A stretch of 64,000 bases of DNA from Exiguobacterium sibiricum 7-3 (GTDB lineage Bacteria > Bacillota > Bacilli > Exiguobacteriales > Exiguobacteriaceae), in NCBI RefSeq assembly GCF_000620865.1, contig NZ_KK211190.1, positions 571,971 to 635,970 of the forward strand. The letters run 5' to 3'. A program made the position numbers and the translations under genes. The notes beneath the pieces are model-generated. The model did no database searches, was not told the DNA's origin, and was given only the letters and a program-made list of their open reading frames with translations. This document shows positions 41,688 to 49,909 of this stretch, one piece after another (the stretch's first letter is position 1; each line of letters begins with the position of its first letter).

Positions 41688-44513
41688 TTATCCGGTATAG
41701 CGAAGAGACTGGAAAAAACGTAAGACCAGTTCAGCTTCTTGGACAGTTGCATATTGTCCGACATATTGTCCCTGTTCGATGGCGATGATGGACAAGGTAC
41801 AGGAGACCATTTGAATCCCTTCGGTGAGCCGTACTTCAAACGTCGCGGTCTGCAACGGCAGTGGCGTTTTCGTCGTGAAGTAGAGATGACGGGTACTCGT
41901 CCGGTGTGCCTGAATGTCTGAAAAACTAAAATCAAAGGCTTGATTTTGATGTTTCAGCATCTTGATTTTTCCTGAGACGGAGAAACTGGGAATGGTATCG
42001 GACGCAAGGGAACAGGCTTCAATCGGATACAACACTTCCCGTAAGAGGAAACTTTCCATCACCTCTGCCGATACCGGTCTACTAAATAAATAACCTTGGA
42101 TATTCGGACAGTTCAAGAACCGGAACATCTCGAGTTGTTGTAATGTTTCGATTCCTTCCGCGATGACGGCTAGATTAAACTCTGTTGCCATGTAAAGAAT
42201 ACTTTTGACGATGGCTTGCGCTTTTCGATCCTTCGCGATATGCGTCGCAAATTGCCGATCAATCTTGACGACGTTGATCGGATAACGTTGCAAATAGACC
42301 ATTGAGGAGTATCCTTTTCCAAAGTCGTCGAGAGCAATCCGAACACCGAGCTGACTTAAGTGTTCGAGGGTCCGACTGATGTTCGGGTCATCCATGATCA
42401 AGGCGGCTTCCGTGATTTCAAGTTCAAGCAGATCAGCCGACAGCTGGTACGTTGTCAGAGCTTGTTCGATTTGATGCTCGAACCCGGGGATCAAAAACCG
42501 TTTTGGGGAGACATTGACGGAAATCGGAACAAGTTCAGCACCGGCACGGGACCAGTTGATCATCGCCTGACACGCCGTCTCGACGACCCAGTCGCCAATC
42601 GCGATATGGAGTGCACTTTCTTCTGCAAGTGGAATAAAATCATTTGGTGGAATCCGTCCCCATTCCGGGTGTTGCCACCGGATTAAGGCTTCGAGACCAA
42701 TGATTTTCCCAGTCCAGCTATCGACTTTCGGTTGGTACTCAAGAAACAGTTGATTCCGCTCAATCGCGTAATGCAAATCTTGTTCGAGGCGGTAACGGCG
42801 ATAGTAATCGATATCGAGATTGGACGCATAATGATGGACGGCACTATGGTCTTCTCGGCGCGAACGCCGCAGTGCCGTATATGAATGTTTCATCAGCTCA
42901 ATCGGATCATGACTATCATCCGGAAAACGGCTGATCCCAATCGAGACCCGGGCAAACAAGGCGTATGGCTCAATCAGAATCGGTGCATCAGATAACGTGA
43001 GCAAGGCTTCGGCACACGATGTGATGTCTTGCTTGAAGCTGGACGGAATGAGGATCGCGTATTCATCGCCACCGAGATGACCAAAAAAGACTTCATCTGG
43101 TTTTGATGTGTAGAGAAGAGCGCTCGTTGCTTGAATCCACTGATCACCGGACGCATGACCAAATGCATTGTTGATTTCAGAAATCCGGTTAAACGAAATC
43201 GATAAAATCGAGAAGGTGGTATTCGTTTGCATCCAGTCCTTGATGGTTTCAGTTAACGAGATCCGGTTTGGCAGACCGGTGACAGAATCGTGCATCGCGA
43301 GTTGCTGCAACCGTTCTTCATATTCTTTTTGTAACGTGATGTCATGCATGATGCTGTTCGTATAGGCAATCGATCCATCGAGCTGAAAGACGGGGATTTG
43401 TTGATCCTCGACCCATTTGCGACGGCCATCTGGAAACAGCAGTCGATACTGGATTGTGCCGGATTTCCCGGAGGTTAGGCGTTTGATGAACTGTTTCATC
43501 GCCGGTTTATCACGCGGGTCCAGTCGCTCAAACAACCAGTCTTGACTGAGAATCAAGTCTTTTGGCAGCTCCTCGAAAATCTGGAAGAATCCTTTGGAAT
43601 GAAACAGCAGCCGTCCACTTGATAAATCAATTTGTGAAATCGCCGCTTCGAGCGCCTCGTAGATTTCCTTTGTCTGTTCACGTTCGAGCTTCAGTTGGCG
43701 CCGAACTTCATCGACTTCCGATAAATCGTACAAAATAACTGAAATCGGTCCATTCAGACCGTCTCGTCGCAACGCTTTTAAACGTAAGAGTTGATACTCT
43801 TGATTGGCATTTAGAACGGATACCTCTTGTTCAAACGTATCGAGTTCTCCGTCGAGCAGCCGAATCATCTGAAACTTGAGTGGGTCAAAGTCACGTGGGT
43901 GAATCCATTGGTGCACTTGTTCATTCCACAAGTGTTCGGGCTTCTCTGGATCAAGGCCTAAGTAGTTGATCAAGGACGGGGAATACTCGATGGTTCGTGT
44001 CGACGGATCATATTTGAAGACGACGAGTTCCGCGATCTGTTCCGTCAGTTCAAGTTGGGAGCGGATTTGCGCGACATCATGTTCGAGTTGCTTTTCGCGG
44101 GTGATGTCGCGGGCAACGCCGTAGACGCCGACAATCTGACCATCTTGTTCAATCGGCATGTTGGTGATTTTTAACGTCAGCCGATGTTGATCGACGTGCA
44201 GTCCTTGCGCTGTATAATGGACGGTTTCCCCGGCAAGGGCACGTTTGAAAAAGGCAGTCACGGCATCAATCTGTTCCGGTGGATTGAAGACTGCGAAATG
44301 TTCGTATAACGTTTCCTGCGAATAACCGAGCATCTGCGGAAGGTATTCATTAAAATAAATGATTTCACCGAGGTGATTGAAGAAAAAAACAGCATCCGTC
44401 GTCTGCTTGAAAAACGGTTCCATACGTTCCGGATGTGACAGTTCTAGCCCTCCGATCAACAGAGGGGATGTGGACGAACGACTAAGTCGTTGCATCGCGT
44501 TGAAAAAAGTCAT
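41688..44513 (-). CDS. PAS-GGDEF-EAL cyclic-di-GMP protein
   Basis: A 941-residue soluble protein. PAS-like segments cover about residues 25-400 (FFNHLGEIIYFNEYLPQ; IEYSPSLINYLGL; RLLFPDGRRKWVED). The GGDEF domain has HLGGDEYAILI near residue 480, an intact cyclase site. The EAL domain has GLEALIRWQHPEW near 600, ALDDFGKGYSS and AEGIETLQQLEMF. About 110 further residues form a beta-rich tail, possibly a divergent PilZ domain. Both catalytic motifs look intact, so it may make or break cyclic-di-GMP. Confidence 0.87.
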   Translation of the reverse strand: MTFFNAMQRLSRSSTSPLLIGGLELSHPERMEPFFKQTTDAVFFFNHLGEIIYFNEYLPQMLGYSQETLYEHFAVFNPPEQIDAVTAFFKRALAGETVHYTAQGLHVDQHRLTLKITNMPIEQDGQIVGVYGVARDITREKQLEHDVAQIRSQLELTEQIAELVVFKYDPSTRTIEYSPSLINYLGLDPEKPEHLWNEQVHQWIHPRDFDPLKFQMIRLLDGELDTFEQEVSVLNANQEYQLLRLKALRRDGLNGPISVILYDLSEVDEVRRQLKLEREQTKEIYEALEAAISQIDLSSGRLLFHSKGFFQIFEELPKDLILSQDWLFERLDPRDKPAMKQFIKRLTSGKSGTIQYRLLFPDGRRKWVEDQQIPVFQLDGSIAYTNSIMHDITLQKEYEERLQQLAMHDSVTGLPNRISLTETIKDWMQTNTTFSILSISFNRISEINNAFGHASGDQWIQATSALLYTSKPDEVFFGHLGGDEYAILIPSSFKQDITSCAEALLTLSDAPILIEPYALFARVSIGISRFPDDSHDPIELMKHSYTALRRSRREDHSAVHHYASNLDIDYYRRYRLEQDLHYAIERNQLFLEYQPKVDSWTGKIIGLEALIRWQHPEWGRIPPNDFIPLAEESALHIAIGDWVVETACQAMINWSRAGAELVPISVNVSPKRFLIPGFEHQIEQALTTYQLSADLLELEITEAALIMDDPNISRTLEHLSQLGVRIALDDFGKGYSSMVYLQRYPINVVKIDRQFATHIAKDRKAQAIVKSILYMATEFNLAVIAEGIETLQQLEMFRFLNCPNIQGYLFSRPVSAEVMESFLLREVLYPIEACSLASDTIPSFSVSGKIKMLKHQNQAFDFSFSDIQAHRTSTRHLYFTTKTPLPLQTATFEVRLTEGIQMVSCTLSIIAIEQGQYVGQYATVQEAELVLRFFQSLRYTG

Positions 44514-44664
44514 AGCTGAATCTCCTCACTCGAATTTTTAGCTCTCTTTCTAGTATCGGAGTATCTGTCCCTGAATTGCAATCAAAGTTCGACAGATAGA
44601 CTTATTTTTCAAAAAAAGTGAATCATTTTTTGGGGGGTAAGTGAAAAAAGGGGAAGGTGGGAGA

Positions 44665-44805
44665 TTGCGTCCAGGTTCTTTCGCTCACTTTTCTCGGGCG
44701 GAACGGAAACCGCGGTCGCCTTGGCAGTCGACCGGGTCTCCCTTGTTCCTGAAGGAAGCAAAGCTTCCTTTTTCCGTAGAAGTCGAGCTTCGAAAGTGGA
44801 CGCAA
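44665..44805. repeat. Foldback intergenic repeat, copy A
   Basis: 141 bases bounded by TTGCGTCCA and its complement TGGACGCAA. The inner core (CTCGGGCGGAACGGAAACC, GACCGGGTCT, TTGTTCCTGA) is shared with copy B at 47328 in the same orientation. Internal hairpins are GGTCG...CGACC and GGAAGC-AAA-GCTTCC. The outer arms differ from those of copy B yet pair within the copy. Confidence 0.75.
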
Positions 44806-44958
44806 CCGTCTTATACGATGCACGGATCGAGAGGAAAACGGAAAGAATACAAAACCATAAAAGATGATAAAGTCGCAAAATTGAAGAAGATTATTTTAGG
44901 ATACAAAAAGACAAACTTTGTCATGCTCCACTGGGTGTGAAGACTGACGCGGTTTGTC

Positions 44959-45162
44959 GTGATTCAATGTGTCATCAGACCGCTAAGTCACCAGATGTGT
45001 CGCGGAGGCGGATCGGGCGACGTTTACGTCAAACAAGACGGTGGGTCCGGACACAGCCTTGCGATCAGCCTGTTGATTCTTGACAGTCACGGCTTGACGT
45101 ATGGTGTCCGAGAGAGTGCACTCGGAGGCGCCTGCTTTTATGTCTGCTTCAAGGAAAAATAA
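44959..45162 (+). pseudogene. Remnant of a histidine kinase C-terminus
   Basis: The frame ending at 45162 encodes GGSGHSLAISLLILDSHGLT then YGVRESALGGACFYVCF, which resembles the last ATPase motifs of sensor kinases (GxGLGLAI ... HG ... GGxxFxxxF). Nothing upstream in any frame gives the rest of a kinase, and the glycine motif is damaged (GSGHSLAI). Likely a decayed end of a lost gene. Identification is by eye only. Confidence 0.4.
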
Positions 45163-45200
45163 AAAATGTCCCGCTCTTCATACATGATGAAGGGCGGAAC
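45163..45200 (-). terminator. Terminator for the reverse-strand gene at 45208
   Basis: On the reverse strand GTTCCGCCCTTCAT pairs with ATGAAGAGCGGGAC, followed by ATTTTTTATTTTT. Confidence 0.75.
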
Positions 45201-45207
45201 GTGCGGT

Positions 45208-45711
45208 TTATTCAGAGTCGTTTGCTTGGACGAGGCTTGGTTTGACGAGTGTATAGAATTCATCACTCATCCCGACACGGCTGCCCATCTGGCAAGCGAG
45301 TTCGAGTGTTTCCTGGTAGAATTTCGCAACTAAGCCATGGTTTTTGATGTGCATGTCTTTCATTGCTTTTTCGACACCCAGAACGACTTTTGCGATTTGG
45401 TCATCGGCGTCATTACGAACAGGGACGACGTTTTCCGGCAAATCAACTTCTTTGTCGTGTCCGTTGAAGCGGAACGAGGCGCCGAATCCGAGGTGCTCGA
45501 GGAAGAAGTGTGGTAACAATTTACCGGCAAAGAACTGGTGCCACTCGCTTTCTTTCATCGTATTCATATCGCGTTTGAAAGAAGTCGTCGCGAGTGCGTA
45601 GCGGTCATGTGTATCTTTCATGAACTTCTCGAGGATTGGTACCTGCATCGCAAACGAATTCTTCAGCAGATTATCGAGCTGTTCTTGCGTTAATTGTTCT
45701 TGTTCAGCCAT
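45208..45711 (-). CDS. Conserved-looking hypothetical protein, 167 residues
   Basis: A soluble, mostly helical protein starting MAEQEQLTQEQLDNLLKNSF at 45711; a GGGGTT lies 8 bases upstream. There is no signal peptide, membrane helix or motif I recognise. It has its own terminator. Codon use is as in neighbouring genes, so the gene looks genuine. An in-frame start 20 codons upstream is possible but has no better ribosome site. Confidence 0.6.
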   Translation of the reverse strand: MAEQEQLTQEQLDNLLKNSFAMQVPILEKFMKDTHDRYALATTSFKRDMNTMKESEWHQFFAGKLLPHFFLEHLGFGASFRFNGHDKEVDLPENVVPVRNDADDQIAKVVLGVEKAMKDMHIKNHGLVAKFYQETLELACQMGSRVGMSDEFYTLVKPSLVQANDSE

Positions 45712-45848
45712 CAGTTTAACCCCATTTCGTTTCGTTACTTCTATCGTAAGAAATTTAGACAATTCCGTCAAATCTTTTTCAAGAATAGAGTTTACCTATT
45801 TCACAAAAGGGAATTTAACTATTATCGAAGGGTTGAGGGGGAGTTAGC

Positions 45849-46331
45849 ATGAAACGACTAGCAATGACAGGGGTATTAATCGGGGCATGTCTAATTCCAG
45901 TGACAGCTTTCGGCGCAAGCAACGTGACGTATCAAAAAGGAACGGTTCAAAATAAAGAGTTCGGTTATTCGGTCAAAGCGACGACTGCTCTACAGACAGC
46001 AATCAAACAAGACAAGGTCGACGTCGTCAAAAACAAAACCGTTAAGACGAAATACGGGACCGTGACACGAAGCGGGACGTTTTCGCTTTATTATAAAGTG
46101 AAGGGCAAAGACCAATTGCTCGTCAACTTGAACTTTGAACCGAAAAAATTATCAAAAAAACAATTTGAAAAACAAGTCGGGTACGGGACGTATCTCGGAA
46201 TAAAAGGCAACAAAACGTATTATTATGTCCAACCGACAGAAGCCGTCAAAGGCGCAGTCGGTAAAGAAAAAATCGCTCACTTGATCACAAAGGATGTCCC
46301 GGCGATGATGAAAACATTTAAATTAAAATAA
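45849..46331 (+). CDS. Secreted hypothetical protein
   Basis: A 160-residue protein with a clear signal peptide (MKRLAMTGVLIGACLIPVTAFGA, cleavage after about residue 23) and a Lys/Thr-rich beta-pattern mature part (ATTALQTAIKQDKVDVV ... FSLYYKVKGKDQLLVNLNF). No known domain recognised. GAGGGGGAGTTAGC precedes the ATG. Ends with a weak hairpin at about 46345-46372. Confidence 0.7.
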   Translation: MKRLAMTGVLIGACLIPVTAFGASNVTYQKGTVQNKEFGYSVKATTALQTAIKQDKVDVVKNKTVKTKYGTVTRSGTFSLYYKVKGKDQLLVNLNFEPKKLSKKQFEKQVGYGTYLGIKGNKTYYYVQPTEAVKGAVGKEKIAHLITKDVPAMMKTFKLK

Positions 46332-46408
46332 GTAAACTGCAAGGGGCACCAGCTTTTGCTAGTGCTTCTTTTGATGGTCCGATATAGTAAAGGTTGAGGT
46401 GAAGTGAA

Positions 46409-47239
46409 ATGGAATGGACAGTAACAGAAGTCAAACAAACAACAGAAGTATTGCAACTTGAGAAATGTGTCAACGATCACGACGGAATTGAATTGAAAGT
46501 CGCGGCGGATTGGGTCGGACAAAATGATTTCGCGATTTATGACGATACGAAATTAATCGGTTATCTGCAGGCCTTCGCGTATTTGCCGACGGAGTGGGAA
46601 CTCAATGTCTTCGTCGATCCAGATTACCGGAAGCAAGGTGTCTTTAAGACACTTGTCGAAGTAGCGAAAGAAGCGGCACGTCCGCAAGGCGTCGAAGCGT
46701 TTACGTTCGTCATTGATGACGCAAGCGAGTCCGGCCAAGCGGTCCTTGGTCAACTTGGTGCTGAATACCGGATGACGGAATACAACATGGTGCTGAAAAA
46801 AGCGCAATTGTTCTTAAAAGCGGATCCGGATTTCGAACTGCGGGAAGCGACAGCGGACGATCGTCCGTTCATCGTTGAGACACTCGGTTCATCATTCGGC
46901 AACACGGCAGACGAGGCAGAATCTATTTACCAAGCGATTGAGTCGGATGATCGTGTCACGTTCATCGGTGTCGCAAACCGCAAGCCAGTTGGTGTCATTC
47001 GGGCTTATCTGGCGTCAGACACGCAGGCGAGCATTCATGCCTTTGCCGTCCGCCCGGAAGCACAGGGCAACGGATACGGTAAGAAAATGTTGAAGCTGAT
47101 GGTCCAAGCGATGTTCCGGACCGGGCGGACGCAACTTGAGCTCGACGTCGAGACAGACAACGCACGAGCGCTTGATTTGTATAAAGATGCCGGGTTCGTT
47201 GTTGGACGCGGTTATCAGTTCCACGTGCTTGGCTTATAA
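46409..47239 (+). CDS. Tandem GNAT-family N-acetyltransferase
   Basis: A 276-residue protein with two GNAT domains. The N-terminal one (about 1-130) has LNVFVDPDYRKQGVFKTLVE; the C-terminal one (about 135-276) has HAFAVRPEAQGNGYGKKMLK and ends in ARALDLYKDAGFV. Both contain an acetyl-CoA binding motif A. Substrate unknown. GAGGTGAAGTGAA lies before the ATG. Confidence 0.85.
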   Translation: MEWTVTEVKQTTEVLQLEKCVNDHDGIELKVAADWVGQNDFAIYDDTKLIGYLQAFAYLPTEWELNVFVDPDYRKQGVFKTLVEVAKEAARPQGVEAFTFVIDDASESGQAVLGQLGAEYRMTEYNMVLKKAQLFLKADPDFELREATADDRPFIVETLGSSFGNTADEAESIYQAIESDDRVTFIGVANRKPVGVIRAYLASDTQASIHAFAVRPEAQGNGYGKKMLKLMVQAMFRTGRTQLELDVETDNARALDLYKDAGFVVGRGYQFHVLGL

Positions 47240-47606
47240 TTGTTTTGTAGAAAGTCCATGCGAGTGGGCTTTTTTTGTAGAGTTCAAAGACCACAGGTCT
47301 GTCCACTTTTTAAATAAATACGATATCGTTTCCGGTTGTCCGGTGGCGCGCTTTCCTCGGGCGGAACGCAAGCCGCGATCGTCCTCTTCGGACGACCGGG
47401 TCTTGCCTGTTCCTGACGGAAGGGACAAGCCCTTCCTTTTCCCGCAGGAGTTGCGCCTGGACTCCGGAAACTGAGGCATTGAAAAATTGGTGAGATATGA
47501 TGAAGTGACGACATAAAAAAACAAGTTCACATTCTAAAGGAAATCTGAAACCTTCTCCGTTTTTTGTCGTATACTACACATATGGAAAAAAAGAGGAGGC
47601 GACGTT
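47240..47606. other. Intergenic region of 367 bases with a foldback repeat
   Basis: Holds a short hairpin with T tract just after the acetyltransferase gene (about 47256-47276), then foldback repeat copy B (47328-47471), then the upstream region of the gene at 47607. No protein gene is supported here. Confidence 0.6.
47328..47471. repeat. Foldback intergenic repeat, copy B
   Basis: 144 bases bounded by GTTTCCGG and CCGGAAAC, with further arm pairing (GTCC/GGAC, GGCGC/GCGCC). The core CTCGGGCGGAACGCAAGCC, GACCGGGTCTTG and CTGTTCCTGA matches copy A at 44665. Inner hairpins TCGTCC-TCTTC-GGACGA and GGAAGGG-ACAAG-CCCTTCC occupy the same places as the different hairpins of copy A. Confidence 0.75.
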
Positions 47607-48047: not shown

Positions 48048-48340
48048 CAAGTTAAGCCATATCAAACAAATCAACGACGCGGAGTAAGTACCGTCAACAC
48101 TGCCGACAAAGCGAGTCAGGAAAGGTGAGAGCCTGACGCGGTAAGCTGATTAGGGAATGGACCGCTGAGAGCCTGTTGAACGATTCAGTAGACAGGACGG
48201 TTGCCTCCGTTAACGGGCTAGCTGGTTGTTGGACCAGCGACAAGAGGAGATTTTTAATCTCAACTAGAGGTGGCACCGCGCGGATAAAGGCGTCCTCTAT
48301 GCATCAGCTTTTGCTGTGCATAGAGGACGCCTTTTGTTTT
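48048..48340 (+). promoter_or_regulatory. T-box riboswitch, tryptophan specifier
   Basis: A tRNA-sensing leader. The specifier loop has AGTA on its 5' side (GGAGTAAGTACC) and GAA-TGG-A on its 3' side, closed by GCGG/CCGC pairing; the specifier is TGG (48158-48160), Trp. The apical stem GTCAGG/CCTGAC has a GGTGAGAG loop. The T-box AGAGGTGGCACCGCG is at 48266-48280; its bulge TGGC fits a tRNA with discriminator G, as bacterial tRNA-Trp has. A long terminator (48286-48340) follows. Uncharged tRNA-Trp should turn on the peptide-binding gene at 48395. Confidence 0.9.
48286..48340 (+). terminator. Regulatory terminator of the T-box leader
   Basis: AAAGGCGTCCTCTATGCA pairs with TGTGCATAGAGGACGCCTTT; its 5' arm follows the T-box sequence, so it competes with the antiterminator. 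Confidence 0.85.
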
Positions 48341-48394
48341 ACGTCAAGGAACGCCGAATCATCCAACGCACATTATCTTTAGGGGGAATTTTTG

Positions 48395-49909
48395 ATGAAA
48401 AAGACATTGATCGCGGCGGCAAGTACGGCGTTCCTGCTTGCAGGATGCTCAACAACGGATACGGAACAAGCAGCACCAAATAAGAACGAAAAGAAAGTCC
48501 TGCATACGATGGAAAGTTACGATCTCCTGTCAGTCGACCCGGCAGACGCCATCACGTCAAATATCTTTAACCAGATTTATGAAGGACTCTACCGCTTTGA
48601 TGCAAACAATGAACTGGTCCCGGCAGCAGCGAAGTCGCATAGCGTGTCGGAAGACGGAAAAGTCTATACGTTTAAGCTCGACCCGAATGCCAAATGGTCG
48701 GACGGCAAGCCGGTTACAGCGGAAAACTTCCGTTATGCATATGAGCGCGTCATCGACACGAATTCACCGTTCGCGTATCTGCTCGAGCCGGTTAAGGAAA
48801 CGAAAGTCATCGACGACGAAACGTTACAGATCGAACTGAAACGCCCGACACCGTACTTCCTCAGCATGACGACGTTTGGCACATACATGCCGGTCCGGGA
48901 AGACATCGTCAAAGCGCAAGGCGACAAGTTCGGAACGGATCCGAAAACGAACGTCTACAACGGACCGTTCACGTTCAAAAAATATCAGGCCGAGCAAGGT
49001 TATACGCTCGCAAAAAACGCGGACTACGCCGACCGGAAAAACGTCAAGATCGACGAAGTCGATGTCAAAATCATCAAAGATCCGATGCTCGCGATCAACT
49101 TGTTTGAAACAGGCGAACTCGACGTTGCACCACTCAACTCAGAAAACGTCGTCACGTACAAAAACAAAAAAGAGTACAACACGTTCAGCGATTCGCGGAT
49201 GTTCTTCATTCGGATGAATCAAAAAACGGACGCGCTCAAAGATCAGAAGACACGTCAGGCGATTGATGCGGCCTACGATAAAAAAGCACTGACGGAAACG
49301 TTGCTCGGAAACGGTTCATTGCCGGCTGATTACATTGTCCCGCAGGATCTTGATCCGAAATACGACAAGACACGTCAAATCGAATCGTCGTTTGACGCGG
49401 CACAAGCGAAACAAGTTTTGGCTGGTCAAAACCTTGAGCTGACGATGATCATTGAAGACGACGATGTCTCGAAGAAAATCGGTGAGTACATCCAAGGTTC
49501 ACTGAAACAACAAAACGTCGACGTTAAACTGTTGTCACTGCCGAAAAAAGAACGATTGGCGCGTGAAGGACGAGGGGATTACGACTTGTCACTCGCGAGC
49601 TGGGCTCCAGATTATCAAGATGCAACAACGTACTTGAACTTGTTCATGACAGGAAATCCGTTTAACATGATGGACTACTCGAACAAGAAGTATGACGGTC
49701 TCTTGAAACAGGCGGAAAACGAACTCGATCAAGATAAACGTCTGGAACTGTTAAGCGAAGCAGAAACGATGTTGCTTGACGATCAAGCCATCTCACCGGT
49801 CTACCAACGAAAAAATGCCTTCCTCCAAAACACAGAAGTCAAAAACCTGGCCCGTCATAATGTCGGAACAGATATCTCGTATAAATACGTCGAGATTGAC
49901 CGTAAGTAA
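48395..49909 (+). CDS. Peptide ABC transporter substrate-binding lipoprotein (OppA/DppE family)
   Basis: A 504-residue lipoprotein starting MKKTLIAAASTAFLLAGCS, with lipobox LAGC (Cys near residue 19). The SBP_bac_5 domain follows (SYDLLSVDPADAITSNIF, EGLYRFDANNELVPAAAKS, NGPFTFKKYQ). It binds oligopeptides for import. No permease or ATPase gene is adjacent, so it must use a transporter encoded elsewhere. Control by a Trp T-box suggests a job in supplying Trp-containing peptides. Confidence 0.9.
   Translation: MKKTLIAAASTAFLLAGCSTTDTEQAAPNKNEKKVLHTMESYDLLSVDPADAITSNIFNQIYEGLYRFDANNELVPAAAKSHSVSEDGKVYTFKLDPNAKWSDGKPVTAENFRYAYERVIDTNSPFAYLLEPVKETKVIDDETLQIELKRPTPYFLSMTTFGTYMPVREDIVKAQGDKFGTDPKTNVYNGPFTFKKYQAEQGYTLAKNADYADRKNVKIDEVDVKIIKDPMLAINLFETGELDVAPLNSENVVTYKNKKEYNTFSDSRMFFIRMNQKTDALKDQKTRQAIDAAYDKKALTETLLGNGSLPADYIVPQDLDPKYDKTRQIESSFDAAQAKQVLAGQNLELTMIIEDDDVSKKIGEYIQGSLKQQNVDVKLLSLPKKERLAREGRGDYDLSLASWAPDYQDATTYLNLFMTGNPFNMMDYSNKKYDGLLKQAENELDQDKRLELLSEAETMLLDDQAISPVYQRKNAFLQNTEVKNLARHNVGTDISYKYVEIDRK

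Follow-up and report, generated by a model that had tools for sequence, protein, structure and literature searches.

Mobile DNA hairpins widespread in Bacillus-like bacteria include a composite element positioned where sister genomes carry terminator-like stem-loops

Introduction

Small repeats are usually viewed as inserting beside genes and being tolerated there. REP and BIME elements are palindromic intergenic repeats with conserved folds that are associated with RAYT transposases. Two described families come close to the repeats studied here. SPRITE, a repeat of Streptococcus pneumoniae, comprises an 18-bp duplex and a U-rich tract (Croucher et al. 2011, PMC3049150). Bhal-1 is a family of 74-bp stem-loops in Bacillus halodurans, where it numbers 36 copies and is listed as type I (Petrillo et al. 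2008, PMC2267715). Among open-access titles and abstract openings, we found nothing on the present repeat in Exiguobacterium and nothing on mobile repeats that replace terminators.

Here we analyse foldback repeats in a 64,000-nucleotide stretch of Exiguobacterium sibiricum 7-3 (the window). They are members of a mobile, non-coding family of DNA hairpins that is widespread among Bacillus-like bacteria, and one subfamily of it may exchange places with intrinsic terminators.

Results

Two foldback repeats in the window

The original prediction described two foldback repeats with different, self-complementary outer arms and inner hairpins. Both are present with these features, numbered by window position:

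44665-44805, plus strand: copy 1, a type I foldback repeat with copy-specific outer arms (covariance-model match 44676-44791, 102.6 bits)
44665-44673 and 44797-44805: outer arms of copy 1, TTGCGTCCA and TGGACGCAA
44714-44733, plus strand: variable inner hairpin of copy 1, capping its first branch, GGTCG/CGACC (arms 44714-44718 and 44729-44733)
44754-44768, plus strand: second branch hairpin of copy 1, GGAAGC/GCTTCC (arms 44754-44759 and 44763-44768)
47251-47276, plus strand: terminator-like hairpin AAAGTCCATGCGAGTGGGCTTTTTTT, 3' of a GNAT-like gene and adjoining copy 2 (locus L074)
47328-47471, plus strand: copy 2, a type I foldback repeat with outer arms unlike those of copy 1 (covariance-model match 47339-47459, 108.4 bits)
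47328-47335 and 47464-47471: outer arms of copy 2, GTTTCCGG and CCGGAAAC
47379-47395, plus strand: variable inner hairpin of copy 2, TCGTCC/GGACGA (arms 47379-47384 and 47390-47395)
47418-47436, plus strand: second branch hairpin of copy 2, GGAAGGG/CCCTTCC (arms 47418-47424 and 47430-47436)

The fold common to the repeats is one long basal stem with two branches; the outer arms are specific to each site and remain complementary. On both strands, the folds of copy 1 (z -3.9 and -7.3) and copy 2 (z -6.4 and -7.1) beat 200 of 200 dinucleotide shuffles. The predicted shared core of about 85 bases was confirmed but proved somewhat longer, as the copies are 77% identical in a blastn alignment that spans positions 32-132 of the 161-base query. 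The arms of copy 1 carry no T-tract. Ten Exiguobacterium records contain relatives, 77-97% identical, of the flanking gene that was named GNAT-like by eye.

The family extends across Bacilli

A covariance model was built from 14 copies, all from the window's genome. Searching the host and related genomes, as had been proposed, revealed many further copies. The window's genome (3.08 Mb) holds 23 matches with E values of 4.2e-15 or lower, the next match standing at 0.06 (150 of 635 candidates scored). By eye, the copies fall into three subfamilies with a common architecture: type I, to which the two window copies belong, type II, and type III, in which the second branch is missing. With a window copy as query, blastn found matches in 16 of the 18 other genomes of Exiguobacterium and in 0 of 82 others. 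The covariance model, run with strict filters and at most eight candidates scored per genome, found the family at E <= 1e-4 in all 18 other Exiguobacterium genomes and in 64 of 379 further Bacilli genomes, for a total of 83 of 398 genomes and 30 of 145 genera sampled. The likeness to foldback repeats elsewhere in Bacillales that the original prediction pointed out is real, as a model made from this genome alone matches in those genera. Eleven copies from outside the genus were read; they have a core of similar kind and differing outer arms. With 150 candidates scored per genome, copy numbers at E <= 1e-6 were 30 (G010), 19 (G017), 23 (G018), 25 (G012), 99 (G014) and 47 (G001). Window copy 2 had no match in a phage collection, and the composite element described below had none in a plasmid collection. 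The repeats are small, non-coding and multicopy and have inverted-repeat ends, as is characteristic of MITEs.

Copies come and go at orthologous sites

Twenty sites of the window's genome were located in six congeners, and 20 composites of other genomes were then treated likewise. The locus sample consisted of 60 loci from the searches and 160 stretches, with some weaker or duplicate places left out. Empty sites in close strains, which the original prediction had suggested looking for, were found, with presence and absence at orthologous sites among congeners. The family is mobile, a property absent from the first reading. The site of copy 1 (site 1) is occupied in E. undae, RIT594, E. antarcticum and E. 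sibiricum; by eye, the outer arms differ among the window and these four genomes, yet remain complementary. In KRL4, the arms at site 1 are retained and most of the core is deleted. The site of copy 2 (site 2) is occupied in KRL4, E. undae, RIT594, E. antarcticum, E. sibiricum and s193, carries type II copies with other arms and in both orientations in E. indicum, Leaf196 and an uncultured relative, and has only a terminator-like hairpin in E. flavidum.

With genes called from open reading frames only, 16 of the 23 copies in the window's genome lie between convergent genes, 6 between tandem genes and 1 between divergent genes; for the 20 composites of other genomes the numbers are 14, 5 and 1. 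A/T tracts surround many copies. Taken together, the family is multicopy, present or absent at orthologous sites, intergenic, mostly near gene 3' ends and conserved in structure by covariation.

Pairing is conserved, probably in DNA or for both strands

The structure alignment contained 120 matches from 99 loci, in 103 distinct rows that include orthologous copies. In this alignment, whose fit to the covariance model favours the pairing figures, 94.5% of cells paired over the 103 distinct copies versus 79.2% after shuffling, and at most 53.1% paired when partners were slid. Both sides had changed in 24 of 31 pairs (covariation score 0.436 versus 0.172). Covariation is strong over the distinct copies, and the arm changes of the window copies, which had been read as compensating changes that keep pairing, are part of this family-wide covariation. 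Neither of the two outcomes that would have counted against the original prediction, a genome lacking more copies or an alignment lacking covariation, was observed.

One pair is near-invariant, being U.G in 101 of 103 copies; outside this pair there are 37 G.U cells and 50 A.C cells. Selection on one RNA strand is expected to tolerate G.U far above A.C. Because G.U is no commoner than A.C, we read the pairing as a property of DNA or as kept for both strands, and it seems to be maintained in this way and not in one RNA. Of the original proposal, the kept pairing stands; that selection acts on a fold, of RNA or of DNA, is one possible cause, and the counts do not fit selection on a single RNA strand. 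A fold selected as RNA could be a small RNA or could act in cis at mRNA 3' ends, as a stabiliser, terminator or processing site, and the strong covariation, the location of copies at gene 3' ends and the A/T tracts flanking many of them would all agree with such a role. We nevertheless consider it unlikely in view of the G.U and A.C counts, the lack of strand preference, and the gain and loss of copies between species. Rfam likewise gave no match over the repeats: at gathering score the only match in the whole window was a T-box elsewhere, and a search of 44500-47600 up to E 10 returned three chance-level matches, none of them over the repeats.

Templated repair of imperfect palindromes could also keep arms complementary without selection. 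An origin of the complementarity in such replicative template switching, instead of in structural selection, would account for the about equal rarity of G.U and A.C, for same-site arms that differ at several bases among species yet pair, and for the survival of the KRL4 site 1 arms when the core was deleted. It is a somewhat improbable explanation of the whole pattern, since the core sequence is conserved across genera too and the U.G mismatch, which templated repair would tend to erase, has been kept in nearly every copy.

A composite element encloses type II copies

Several type II copies lie within a 238-bp composite, a unit that encloses the type II core in nested hairpins. Its order is A-tract, GGGGCTGACTCA, A6, GAATCACTCG, core, CGAGTGATTC, T7 and a second hairpin (AAGGGTGGCAGA/TCTGCCACCCTT), followed by ACTGACTTTTGAGTCAGCCCC and a T-tract. 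All six genomes searched contain full-length or nearly full-length matches, the closer ones 83-94% identical to the query copy, and composites occupy differing sites in different Exiguobacterium species. The ends of the segment vary in some copies. This subfamily, and only this one, combines a terminator-like fold, A- and T-tract boundaries and a position near gene 3' ends. In composite alleles inspected by eye, no target-site duplication was noticed, and the alleles resemble replacement.

We found no transposase linked to the family, and no autonomous version, that is, a gene between composite ends, was noticed among the matches in the six genomes. The sole widely interrupted composite that was opened, L360, was considered as an autonomous copy and rejected, as it contains an IS3-like element within a composite. 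These results bear on whether the repeats are REP-like elements moved by a Y1 transposase (IS200/IS605, RAYT-type) that recognises the folded single strand. Palindromic intergenic repeats of such size are a known class, and a conserved hairpin with a near-invariant U.G mismatch would suit recognition of this type. However, the Y1 domain PF01797 occurs in 9 of the 19 genomes of Exiguobacterium; the 10 that lack it all contain the repeat, and two of these, G004 and G017, have full composites. Together with the lack, among the matches, of a gene-bearing element with the same ends, this makes a Y1-driven origin very doubtful.

Composites stand where sister genomes have a terminator-like stem-loop

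Orthologues without the composite have a stem-loop at the same place, mostly with A- and T-tracts. To score this correspondence, 28 composite loci were looked at and reduced to 19 sites. L237 and L239 were excluded for want of an empty orthologue for comparison, L231, L234 and L243 because only partly deleted composites were available for comparison, and L236 because the hairpin of its empty alleles was not regular enough to be detected; L065 and L137 mark a single site, at which the right junction differs, and L240 is the same site as L228. Junctions matched at 14 or more of 20 bases on both sides in 11 of the 19 sites, on one side in 6 and on neither in 2 (L244 and L246). Among 342 mismatched site pairs used as a control, this level was reached by 2 on the left and 1 on the right (mean 8.7). 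The best replacement pairs are L242/L279, L227/L277, L230/L356, L080/L124, L175/L127 and L238/L296. In the first of these, L242 has the element between CTCACTAAAA and TTTTCAGGTCAATC, and L279 has the native stem-loop between CTCACTAAAA and TTTTTCAGGTCAATC. The right junction of L065/L137, L233 and L235 is unlike the native hairpin border. Up to six genomes per site have the stem-loop state in common; from this agreement of several genomes, judged without a formal tree, we infer that the composite is the derived state.

Composites also rarely have a second such hairpin beside them. A terminator-like hairpin lies within 100 bases outside the element in 2 of 27 composites, a set that counts two sites twice (L228/L240 and L234/L243), versus 13 of 17 other copies of the window's genome. 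The numbers are 1 of 27 versus 8 of 17 within 60 bases, and again 2 of 27 versus 13 of 17 before the next open reading frame. In L227, L229, L230, L241, L244, L245 and L246, the gaps between composite and open reading frames, measured from the aligned ends, are only 4 to 36 bases on both sides. By eye, L235 has a terminator-like hairpin left of the composite that is also in the native alleles and that the detector missed. A direct search detected the native stem in occupied alleles at 0 of 19 sites and in 0 of 33 long alleles (some of which are no composites), with a detector that recognised it in only 31 of 63 other short alleles and that missed it in the controls L085 (0 of 3) and L057 (0 of 2), non-composite insertions in which a diverged terminator is visibly kept. 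The scant room before open reading frames and the rarity of neighbouring hairpins are stronger evidence than this absence.

The composite subfamily thus stands where sister genomes have a stem-loop resembling an intrinsic terminator, usually without another hairpin of this kind next to it. This suggests that a mobile element exchanges itself for the terminator of a gene. The same outcome could arise in two steps, with the composite inserting beside a terminator and the redundant terminator then being lost, for instance by slippage between neighbouring T-tracts. Such a course requires no new mechanism, the other family members commonly adjoin a kept terminator-like hairpin (as is also visible at L085 and L057), and the variable ends of the moved segment in some copies agree with it. 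On the other hand, no allele with both the composite and the scored native hairpin was seen at the 19 sites, a result tempered by the weak detection of diverged stems, and in 11 of these sites both junctions coincide with the A- and T-tracts and leave hardly any extra sequence or none. We regard the two-step course as possible, at less than an even chance.

Two other readings of individual alleles were set aside. The A/T tracts had prompted the idea of insertion into the loop of the native terminator, with the native stem becoming the outer arms. This was not borne out: in the empty sites read, the native stem was unseen outside the element, and what seems to be shared in some (L082 and L227) is no more than basal A/T pairs or a small number of additional bases. 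The pair L066/L185, taken as an empty site, is better explained by the element having been deleted later. At the window copies themselves, no terminator replacement was seen. The hairpin at 47251-47276 is still in place, so copy 2 did not replace it, and the two copies are best explained as older, settled family members.

Solo hairpins

Some loci (L378, L379, L381, L390, L394, L398, L401 and L406) have a solo hairpin made of composite ends only, for example GGGGCTGACTTTTGAGTCAGCCCC; in most cases A/T tracts accompany it. A composite that lost the segment between its two CTGACT repeats would leave such a hairpin. One site carries the solo form in E. undae (G012, L310), the composite in two sister genomes (L244 and L266) and another hairpin in four others; the solo form may conceivably have come first there.

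Discussion

The repeats are probably a Bacilli-wide family of non-autonomous, non-coding mobile DNA hairpins, MITE- or REP-like in kind, whose composite form has been exchanged with terminators. The fuller scheme, in which the element exchanges with resident intrinsic terminators, takes over their predicted function in both directions and later leaves a solo terminator, is one to which we give slightly less than even chances. The composite would spread by exchange of hairpin for hairpin, and exchange via short A/T tracts at extruded terminators appears to fit best as a mechanism. In the simplest route, where a terminator hairpin is extruded, a replication fork or break would be repaired by copying another hairpin by way of the short A-tract and T-tract, through template switching or break repair. 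With an A-tract, nested hairpins and a T-tract on each strand, the composite could then act as the terminator of the site both ways, and it may later collapse between the CTGACT direct repeats to a solo hairpin.

A repeat landing in the place of a terminator could evade counter-selection by doing the terminator's job. If this is true, the composite is a mobile terminator that drives terminator turnover with little harm to the host, and such replacement would account for unrelated genes having common terminator sequences. The occupied and empty alleles of sister species are natural events with which the hairpin-exchange mechanism can be tested.

Among known systems, the family resembles REP and BIME elements in being palindromic intergenic repeats with conserved folds, and differs from them in having no consistent link to a Y1 transposase. 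Judged by description, it is also like bcr1 of the Bacillus cereus group, a mobile intergenic repeat of about 150 bp in a Bacillales host. Bhal-1 and the Exiguobacterium repeats, likened by description and not by sequence, are possibly of the same superfamily; the available text on Bhal-1 and other stem-loop families has nothing on terminator replacement (PMC2267715). The composite comes closest to SPRITE in being a small interspersed repeat with the look of an intrinsic terminator, AAAA/TTTT ends and enrichment near gene 3' ends (PMC3049150). Compared by description, it differs in its 238-bp length and nested hairpins, and in that its empty sites show a stem-loop terminator in place. Hairpin exchange offers a testable model for a question left by the SPRITE paper (PMC3049150), namely how a terminator-like repeat enters its sites.

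Distribution and rearrangement of the repeats

The covariance model found 23 copies of the hairpin family in the window genome (150 of 635 candidates scored). On contig G000:C7, which is 2.91 Mb long, 19 of them fall within the first 0.8 Mb, three others in 2.6-2.76 Mb and one at 1.89 Mb. The distribution of copies on this contig is one-sided. A second genome, G014, holds 99 family copies (E <= 1e-6, 150 candidates scored), four of which are arrayed in tandem at locus L361 (G014:C1:1090200-1091800), spaced about 245-278 bp apart. Two further stretches, L362 and L363, are candidates for comparable groups of copies.

Rearranged copies were also observed at site 2, the position of the window repeat at 47328-47471. 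The inner branch is duplicated in tandem in E. sibiricum, and in Exiguobacterium strain s193 one copy that is devoid of the inner branch is followed by a second copy (entries for E. sibiricum and s193: L055, 10931-11097, and L059, 10942-11248). In the family alignment A2, columns 15 and 194 form a U.G (T.G) pair in 101 of 103 copies, within a stem of which the rest covaries. This kept pair is a possible protein contact.

Surroundings of the two repeats

Downstream of site 2 the window contains the following features:

48065-48300, T-box leader (98 bits against Rfam RF00230), preceding the ORF listed next
48392-49909, peptide-binding-protein-like ORF (named by eye), downstream of the T-box leader

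At about 45000-45020, some 200 bases from the repeat at 44665-44805, the window strain seems to carry a deletion, as judged from blast coordinates in which the sequences abutting here stand about 3 kb apart in relatives. Of a histidine-kinase-like gene (named by eye), such a deletion would have left the 3' end, which reaches about 45163.

Other elements

Several occurrences of another small repeated hairpin, CCTGACTTATGAGTCAGCC, and its close variants were detected in genome G009. In genome G007 (locus L360, contig C44), the core of a composite is interrupted by an element with an apparent 3-bp duplication, GAC, and two ORFs that by eye are IS3-like.
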